Assembly (NCBI GenBank): GCA_018396635.1
Contig: JAGTQE010000001.1
Location: 124,001-188,000, forward strand
Source of the DNA: Candidatus Bathyarchaeota archaeon
Lineage (GTDB): Archaea; Thermoproteota; Bathyarchaeia; Bathyarchaeales; DTEX01
Direction of reading: 5' to 3'
DNA length: 64,000 nucleotides
Made by a program: the position numbers and the translations under genes. This document shows positions 50,793 to 51,576 of this stretch, piece after piece. Under the pieces are notes generated by a model. That model was given only the letters and a program-made list of their open reading frames with translations. It made no database searches and was not told the DNA's origin. Positions within the stretch are counted from its first letter, which is position 1. Every line of letters begins with the position of its first letter.

Positions 50793-50974
50793 TGGTGGGG
50801 CTGGCCGGATTTGAACCGGCGACCTACGGGTTTCTCCAAGCTCCAGACTATCTTCATCCCTGAAGAGGTCAGCAAACCCGTTTTCTGGCATCTGGAGCCC
50901 CTAACGACTTAAGCGGCTTCAGCCGCCTAAGTCACCGCTTAAGTAGTCGTCATACCTGGCTAGACCACAGCCCC
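50793..50974 (-). tRNA. tRNA-Trp (anticodon CCA) with two introns: 50901-50945 (28/29) and 50832-50891 (37/38); 3' CCA encoded
   Basis: Removing both introns gives GGGGCTG TG GTC TAGCCAGGTAT GAC G ACGGG CTCCAGA CCCGT AGGTC GCCGG TTCAAAT CCGGC CAGCCCC ACCA, a complete cloverleaf. Both junctions fit bulge-helix-bulge motifs. Confidence 0.93.
50832..50891 (-). ncRNA. Putative box C/D guide RNA embedded in the tRNA-Trp 37/38 intron
   Basis: D' CTGA (50872-50869), C' ATGAAGA (50857-50851), guide ACGGGTTTG upstream of D', and TCTGGAGC (50847-50840) complementary to the anticodon loop. Confidence 0.65.
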
Positions 50975-51069: not shown

Positions 51070-51200
51070 TGGCGGGTTGCCGGCCAAAGGGCGCGGGAAA
51101 CACCCAAACCCATTCCGAACTTGGAAGTTAAACCGCGCTCCGTCCCCGGTTTTAGTGGGGTCTTCGGCCCCGCGAAGCCGGGGAAGCTGGCAATCCGCCA
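51070..51200 (+). rRNA. rrf: 5S ribosomal RNA
   Basis: TGGCGGGTTGCCGGCC...CCCAAACCCATTCCGAACTTGGAAGTTAAACC...GGCAATCCGCCA; conserved 5S core with complementary ends. Confidence 0.95.
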
Positions 51201-51270: not shown

Positions 51271-51576
51271 TTAGATCTTGGATCCTTCTAAGAGCCATTT
51301 TAATGGGATATCTTGGTAGGTTCCATCTGGAAGTGTTCTCCTAATGGTTATTGGCAGGACCCCACGTCTGAGCTCCTCTAGGGCTATGTCTATTGGACTC
51401 CTTAAATCCTTTGTGATCTCTATTAGCACTGGGGCCCCCATGGCGATCTGTAGTGCCCGTGCACCACATATCCTCGCCTTCTCGAAGCGTGTGAGATGAG
51501 GGGGACCTATAAGGATCTTTCTTCCTTCCTTCTCTTTCGCGCTTACAGCCCCATATTCTTCTGCGATTAACGACAA
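51271..51576 (-). CDS. rpoK: DNA-directed RNA polymerase subunit K (Rpb6)
   Basis: [31 protein letters not shown]...[22 protein letters not shown]. Confidence 0.95.

Follow-up and report, generated by a model that had tools for sequence, protein, structure and literature searches.

A box C/D-like guide predicted in the 37/38 intron of a bathyarchaeal tRNA-Trp gene, with one conserved kink-turn

Results

The intron between positions 37 and 38 of a tRNA-Trp gene in the window, the 64,000-nucleotide stretch of Candidatus Bathyarchaeota DNA analyzed here, is very probably a compact box C/D-type guide that acts on its own precursor, for which methylation is predicted. Comparison with relatives indicates that its conserved core is a single D/C kink-turn, closed by a hairpin and flanked by a guide on each side. 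The first-pass annotation of this DNA had proposed a box C/D guide whose targets are residues 34 and 39 of the tRNA that contains it, and this holds insofar as the guides and the D' and C' boxes are conserved and covary, but the layout appears to have one kink-turn and the duplexes appear to be those of the precursor.

The tRNA-Trp(CCA) gene lies at 50796-50974 of the window, on the minus strand like every element of it described here, and is interrupted by two introns. Exon 1 (tRNA positions 1-28; 50946-50974) ends at a splice site placed by a bulge-helix-bulge (BHB) motif and by relatives that lack the first intron. It is followed by a non-canonical intron at 28/29 (45 nt; 50901-50945) with a stable hairpin, whose BHB, assigned by hand, has the helix GACG/CGTT and cuts at AC^T and AG^G; several Thermoproteota relatives also have introns at this site of tRNA-Trp. 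Exon 2 (29-37; GGGCTCCAG; 50892-50900) carries the anticodon CCA and the proposed methylation target C34, and exon 3 (38-73; 50796-50831) starts with ACCCGT and carries the proposed target C39. Between them lies the canonical 37/38 intron with the box C/D-like guide, which is conserved in class and phylum; the coordinates, sequence and strand first given for it were right, 50832-50891 being exactly the 60-nt intron. Intron borders were derived from relatives without extra introns together with the BHB rule, and the BHB of the 37/38 intron consists of a 4-bp helix, CTCC/GGAG, with two 3-nt bulges, AG^A and AA^A, at the splice sites. Removal of 50832-50891 and 50901-50945 leaves a 74-nt RNA that ARAGORN calls as tRNA-Trp(cca); run on the whole window, the program did not call the unspliced gene because of its two introns. 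No other tRNA-Trp gene was detected in the genome (1.45 Mb, 35 contigs), in which the intron model described below gives a single match and a pattern search found no intronless tRNA-Trp copy.

Read 5' to 3', the intron contains the guide directed at C39 (guide39, ACGGGTTTG; 50873-50881), D' directly 3' of it (CTGA; 50869-50872), the hairpin that closes the D'/C' kink-turn (CCTCTTCAGGG; 50858-50868), C' (ATGAAGA; 50851-50857) and, following C', the 12-nt segment directed at C34 (guide34, TAGTCTGGAGCT; 50839-50850). D' and C' are conserved, the stem pairs of the hairpin are kept with changes in relatives, and CTGA-hairpin-ATGAAGA conforms to a D'/C' kink-turn (NNGA ... RUGANNN). Located at 37/38 of tRNA-Trp, the intron has complementarity to two positions of that tRNA, 34 and 39. 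The earlier reading of D' as preceded by a guide whose fifth nucleotide, G, lies opposite C39 was confirmed at 50881-50869, as was that of C' after D' at 50857-50851. That reading had set guide39 against mature positions 35-43, which we do not retain: its first 8 nt form 8 perfect base pairs with the unspliced junction AA^ACCCGT, a duplex of the precursor across the splice junction, whereas on the mature tRNA a G-U pair with G37 is required. Within guide34, also as first described, TCTGGAGC (50847-50840) is exactly complementary to GCTCCAGA, and the G that faces C34 stands five nucleotides ahead of TGGA; the guide34 duplex with GCTCCAG^A, which spans the 5' splice junction, has 8 bp plus one G-U. 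C39 stands at -5 of D' in a 12-nt guide; for C34, with no conserved D box available as a reference, counting from C' gives the corresponding place. When the 60-nt intron was shuffled 20,000 times with dinucleotides preserved, 84 shuffles placed a guide39-like element with 8 bp or more beside a CNGA box, 36 produced a stem-bearing D'/C' kink-turn, 384 contained CTGGAGC, and none combined the guide39-like element with the kink-turn; the question of chance is irrelevant because the intron is conserved in relatives.

A pattern search in the class Bathyarchaeia gave a match in 59 of 257 genomes, and inspection of these yielded 50 tRNA-Trp loci with the same intron, 49 of which were used to build a covariance model (R1). 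With R1 the intron was found in 211 of the 257 class genomes and, of 398 genomes sampled from the phylum Thermoproteota, in 257; among good genomes, defined by completeness of at least 90% and contamination of at most 5%, the counts are 114 of 120 and 222 of 316, respectively. Bearers of the intron include Desulfurococcales, Pyrolobus, Nitrososphaeria, Geothermarchaeota and Methanomethylicia. Parsed relatives show the order guide39 (or a diverged segment), D', hairpin, C' and 12-nt guide34 segment. Comparative anatomy was based on 73 non-redundant introns, in all of which D' and C' were located, D' by a search for GA, so that its GA is not countable as conserved. The pairs of the kink-turn stem change together in these relatives, and conservation of D'/C' and of the guide segments, on which the first-pass annotation had made its proposal depend, is found for both, with covariation. 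One genome of the same genus, G167, holds two different such tRNA-Trp introns (G167:C18 and G167:C15; L171 and L172), reflecting either contamination or a second gene.

Where guide39 is present, its positions -2 to -11 pair with a precursor stretch that runs from i-2 in the intron to 45 in the exon; Watson-Crick pairs at -1 and -12 are almost never seen, which limits the pairing window to 10 nt of the 12-nt guide. Positions -2 and -3, which face the two final bases of the intron, are each Watson-Crick paired in 39 of 43 relatives (row L211 excluded), against shuffle means of 23.4 and 15.9, and the pair types include T-A, C-G, A-T and G-C between them; the observed value was reached in 0 of 5000 shuffles, which ignore relatedness, the recurrence of several pair types in distant families serving as a safeguard. 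Positions -9 and -11 are likewise above shuffles. As alternative partners of guide39, mature G37 and A36 give Watson-Crick pairs in just 16 of 44 and 30 of 44. Guide34 begins 4 nt past the 7-nt C' in 61 of 63 cases and is paired with intron bases 1, 2 and 3 in 62, 52 and 44 of 63 (shuffle means 53.6, 18.8 and 16.7, with 0 of 5000 shuffles reaching each), and with intron base 4 in 9 of 63, under the shuffle mean of 15.5. Box C/D guides recognize at most 10 nt (Yang 2016, by its title as cited in PMC6313347), and both duplexes stay within this limit, guide39 at -2 to -11 and guide34 by reaching no further than intron base 3. The duplexes of relatives are up to 10 bp long for either guide, with N+5 falling on C34 and C39. 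Each of them spans an exon-intron junction, and on the intron side the covarying positions are the first three bases for guide34 and the last two for guide39. Because these intron-side bases covary beyond shuffles, we infer that the guides are selected to pair with the unspliced precursor and not with mature positions 35-43.

Guide34 is kept in all of the non-redundant relatives and guide39 is lost in about 29 of the 73. Residue 39 had been singled out as C rather than U, which is true yet normal, C39 being invariant in the 43 relatives with guide39. In L039, L047, L073-L076, L078, L079 and L083-L089 guide39 is gone and the kink-turn and guide34 remain; L074, L076, L078 and L079 have a common AGTTGGATG ahead of CTGA in its place, and this segment may have another target. 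The pattern suggests that C34 is the conserved function and C39 an optional one, with methylation presumed at each, and since guide34 is kept where guide39 is lost, it points to the wobble residue C34 as the function under selection. Cm34 has been identified by mass spectrometry in tRNA-Trp of Sulfolobus acidocaldarius (PMC7668247). For position 39, a review lists "Um39 (or Cm39)" (PMC6313347), and in P. furiosus the predicted methylation of C39 was not detected (PMC7668247), which counts against a C39 mark.

Discussion

In the mechanism that we propose, the single D'/C' kink-turn, closed by its short hairpin, would bind L7Ae and recruit Nop5 and fibrillarin, all three of which are encoded in the genome. 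Spanning the 5' splice junction with about 10 bp, the 12-nt segment after C' would position C34 for 2'-O-methylation; the 12-nt segment before D' would do likewise for C39 with about 8-10 bp over the 3' splice junction. The precursor would then refold to the BHB (CTCC/GGAG, bulge AA^A) and be cut, and the excised intron is probably circularized; circular tRNA-Trp introns were present in all archaea reanalyzed in one study, Sulfolobus among them (PMC12558985). The BHB helix is part of the computed free-energy minimum at -59.2 kcal/mol and the guide34-paired fold has -56.2, so that the splicing fold and the guide34-paired fold are close in energy in a model that contains neither proteins nor the guide39 pseudoknot.

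The same pairings could in principle be a splicing structure only, in which the intron folds on both junctions and exposes or delays the BHB, and no methylation follows. Both duplexes do use splice-junction bases and exclude the BHB fold, but splicing has no need of a 10-nt window in a 12-nt guide, nor of the guides' fixed distance from D' and C', the conserved kink-turn and the N+5 register on C34 and C39, and Cm34 exists in a Thermoproteota tRNA-Trp; we regard this explanation as unlikely. The identity of the gene itself might be questioned, given that the intron's ACGGG is able to pair with CCCGT and leaves a TGC triplet over, so that alternative exons (ACGGG TT TGC ... AA CCCGT) would make it tRNA-Ala(TGC). 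We rejected this exon choice as wholly implausible: the acceptor has G3-C70, whereas G3-U70 marks tRNA-Ala, the spliced form is called tRNA-Trp, and the Trp exon order is seen in relatives without the first intron.

A guide on the tRNA-Trp precursor could also be a complete box C/D sRNA of the ordinary kind, which has two kink-turns. In the first-pass annotation ATGCCAG (50885-50891), 12 nt ahead of D', was taken as a weak terminal C box and TGGA (50835-50838) as a degenerate D box, and both do stand at exact 12-nt spacing in the window, and recur there as such or with small changes in three genus-mates (L053, L055 and L172). Among the 73 relatives, however, TGA occurs at the C box place, 12 nt before D', in none, and GA at the D box place, 12 nt after C', in 19, and we rejected these boxes as conserved elements; ATGCCAG is not conserved beyond close relatives, and no conserved terminal C/D kink-turn emerges from the set. 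Some introns are without room for either box: L068-L070 have about 4 intron bases before guide39 and 3 after guide34, and neither terminal box fits because too few bases lie outside the guides. In addition, the tandem G-A pairs are broken by C4, which replaces A. By contrast, CCGA stands 12 nt after C' in 48 of 48 parsed haloarchaeal introns, a count made without requiring CCGA, and most of these introns also have a C-like box together with a terminal stem that matches; two Thermococcus-type MAGs have C(ATGAGGA)-12-D'(CTGA)-4-C'(GGGATGA)-12-D(CCGA or CCGC). A better account of TGGA, which overlaps GGAG, is that it belongs to the 3' strand of the CTCC/GGAG splicing helix, and the two-kink-turn layout is very unlikely to apply here.

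The layout with one kink-turn can be set beside the euryarchaeal pre-tRNA-Trp box C/D introns, namely sR50 of Pyrococcus and that of Haloferax volcanii (Clouet d'Orval 2001, Bortolin 2003 and Singh 2004, as cited in PMC7994747, PMC4090602 and PMC6313347). They share the gene, the 37/38 site, targets 34 and 39 and the order guide39-D'-C'-guide34 with the intron described here, and the Thermococcus MAGs share the 12-nt guide on each side. The annotation had named euryarchaeal introns that guide 34 and 39 as the known kind, but the kind is not euryarchaeal only, being found across Thermoproteota. Terminal C and D boxes are present in Haloarchaea and the Thermococcus MAGs and absent here, Thermococcus has a 4-nt D'/C' loop where D'/C' here has a stem, and target 39 is C here and in Thermococcus but U in Haloarchaea. 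In Nanoarchaeum equitans the tRNA-Met intron, predicted to be a C/D sRNA, is likewise a tRNA intron with C/D boxes and a stable hairpin, but lies in another tRNA, and the accessible part of its description contains no self-target (PMC3491384). Only one Rfam C/D family touches the intron, the archaeal box C/D sRNA sR40 (RF01297); it does so on the right strand but is no match, its 14.9 bits (E 1.3) falling short of the gathering score of 50. At the gathering threshold the neighboring 5S rRNA is the sole Rfam match, and the sub-threshold matches (tmRNA, Plastid-ycf2 and sR40) were dismissed as chance or the T arm. Two MAGs labelled Methanomicrobia (L215 and L258) share the layout of the intron described here, with no clear C box in the terminal place; the single-kink-turn form may extend beyond Thermoproteota, or the labels may be wrong.

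The guide function as such is already known, since reviews class archaeal tRNA-Trp introns generally as box C/D (PMC4090602). According to the literature an archaeal C/D RNP requires C/D as well as D'/C' (PMC8413462), and in its textbook form it depends on two motifs bound by L7Ae; this weighs against the proposed guide, in which a single motif is conserved, and makes that motif the point of interest. The chances are about even that, Thermoproteota-wide, a guide RNP on a single hairpin-closed D/C kink-turn with flanking guides methylates two residues of the unspliced tRNA without a second kink-turn, the terminal C/D pair having been lost here or gained in Euryarchaeota. Such a natural one-motif guide across a phylum, if real, would provide a ready test of the second motif's role. 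The covariation with the intron ends indicates, from sequence alone, guides selected to act before splicing, and the intron is much more widespread than the euryarchaeal cases usually cited. No paper on the Bathyarchaeia intron or on a single-kink-turn layout was found in the open literature, of which coverage was partial, so that priority is uncertain; the layout and the phylum-wide precursor covariation may be the new part.

Further insertions, probably introns, occur on the variable-region or T-arm side of the tRNA-Trp gene in L032, L171, L173, L174, L175 and L178. In the window, a 5S rRNA gene (51076-51195, plus strand) diverges from the tRNA-Trp gene, and beyond it lies an Rpb6/RpoK-like gene (51271-51576, minus strand).
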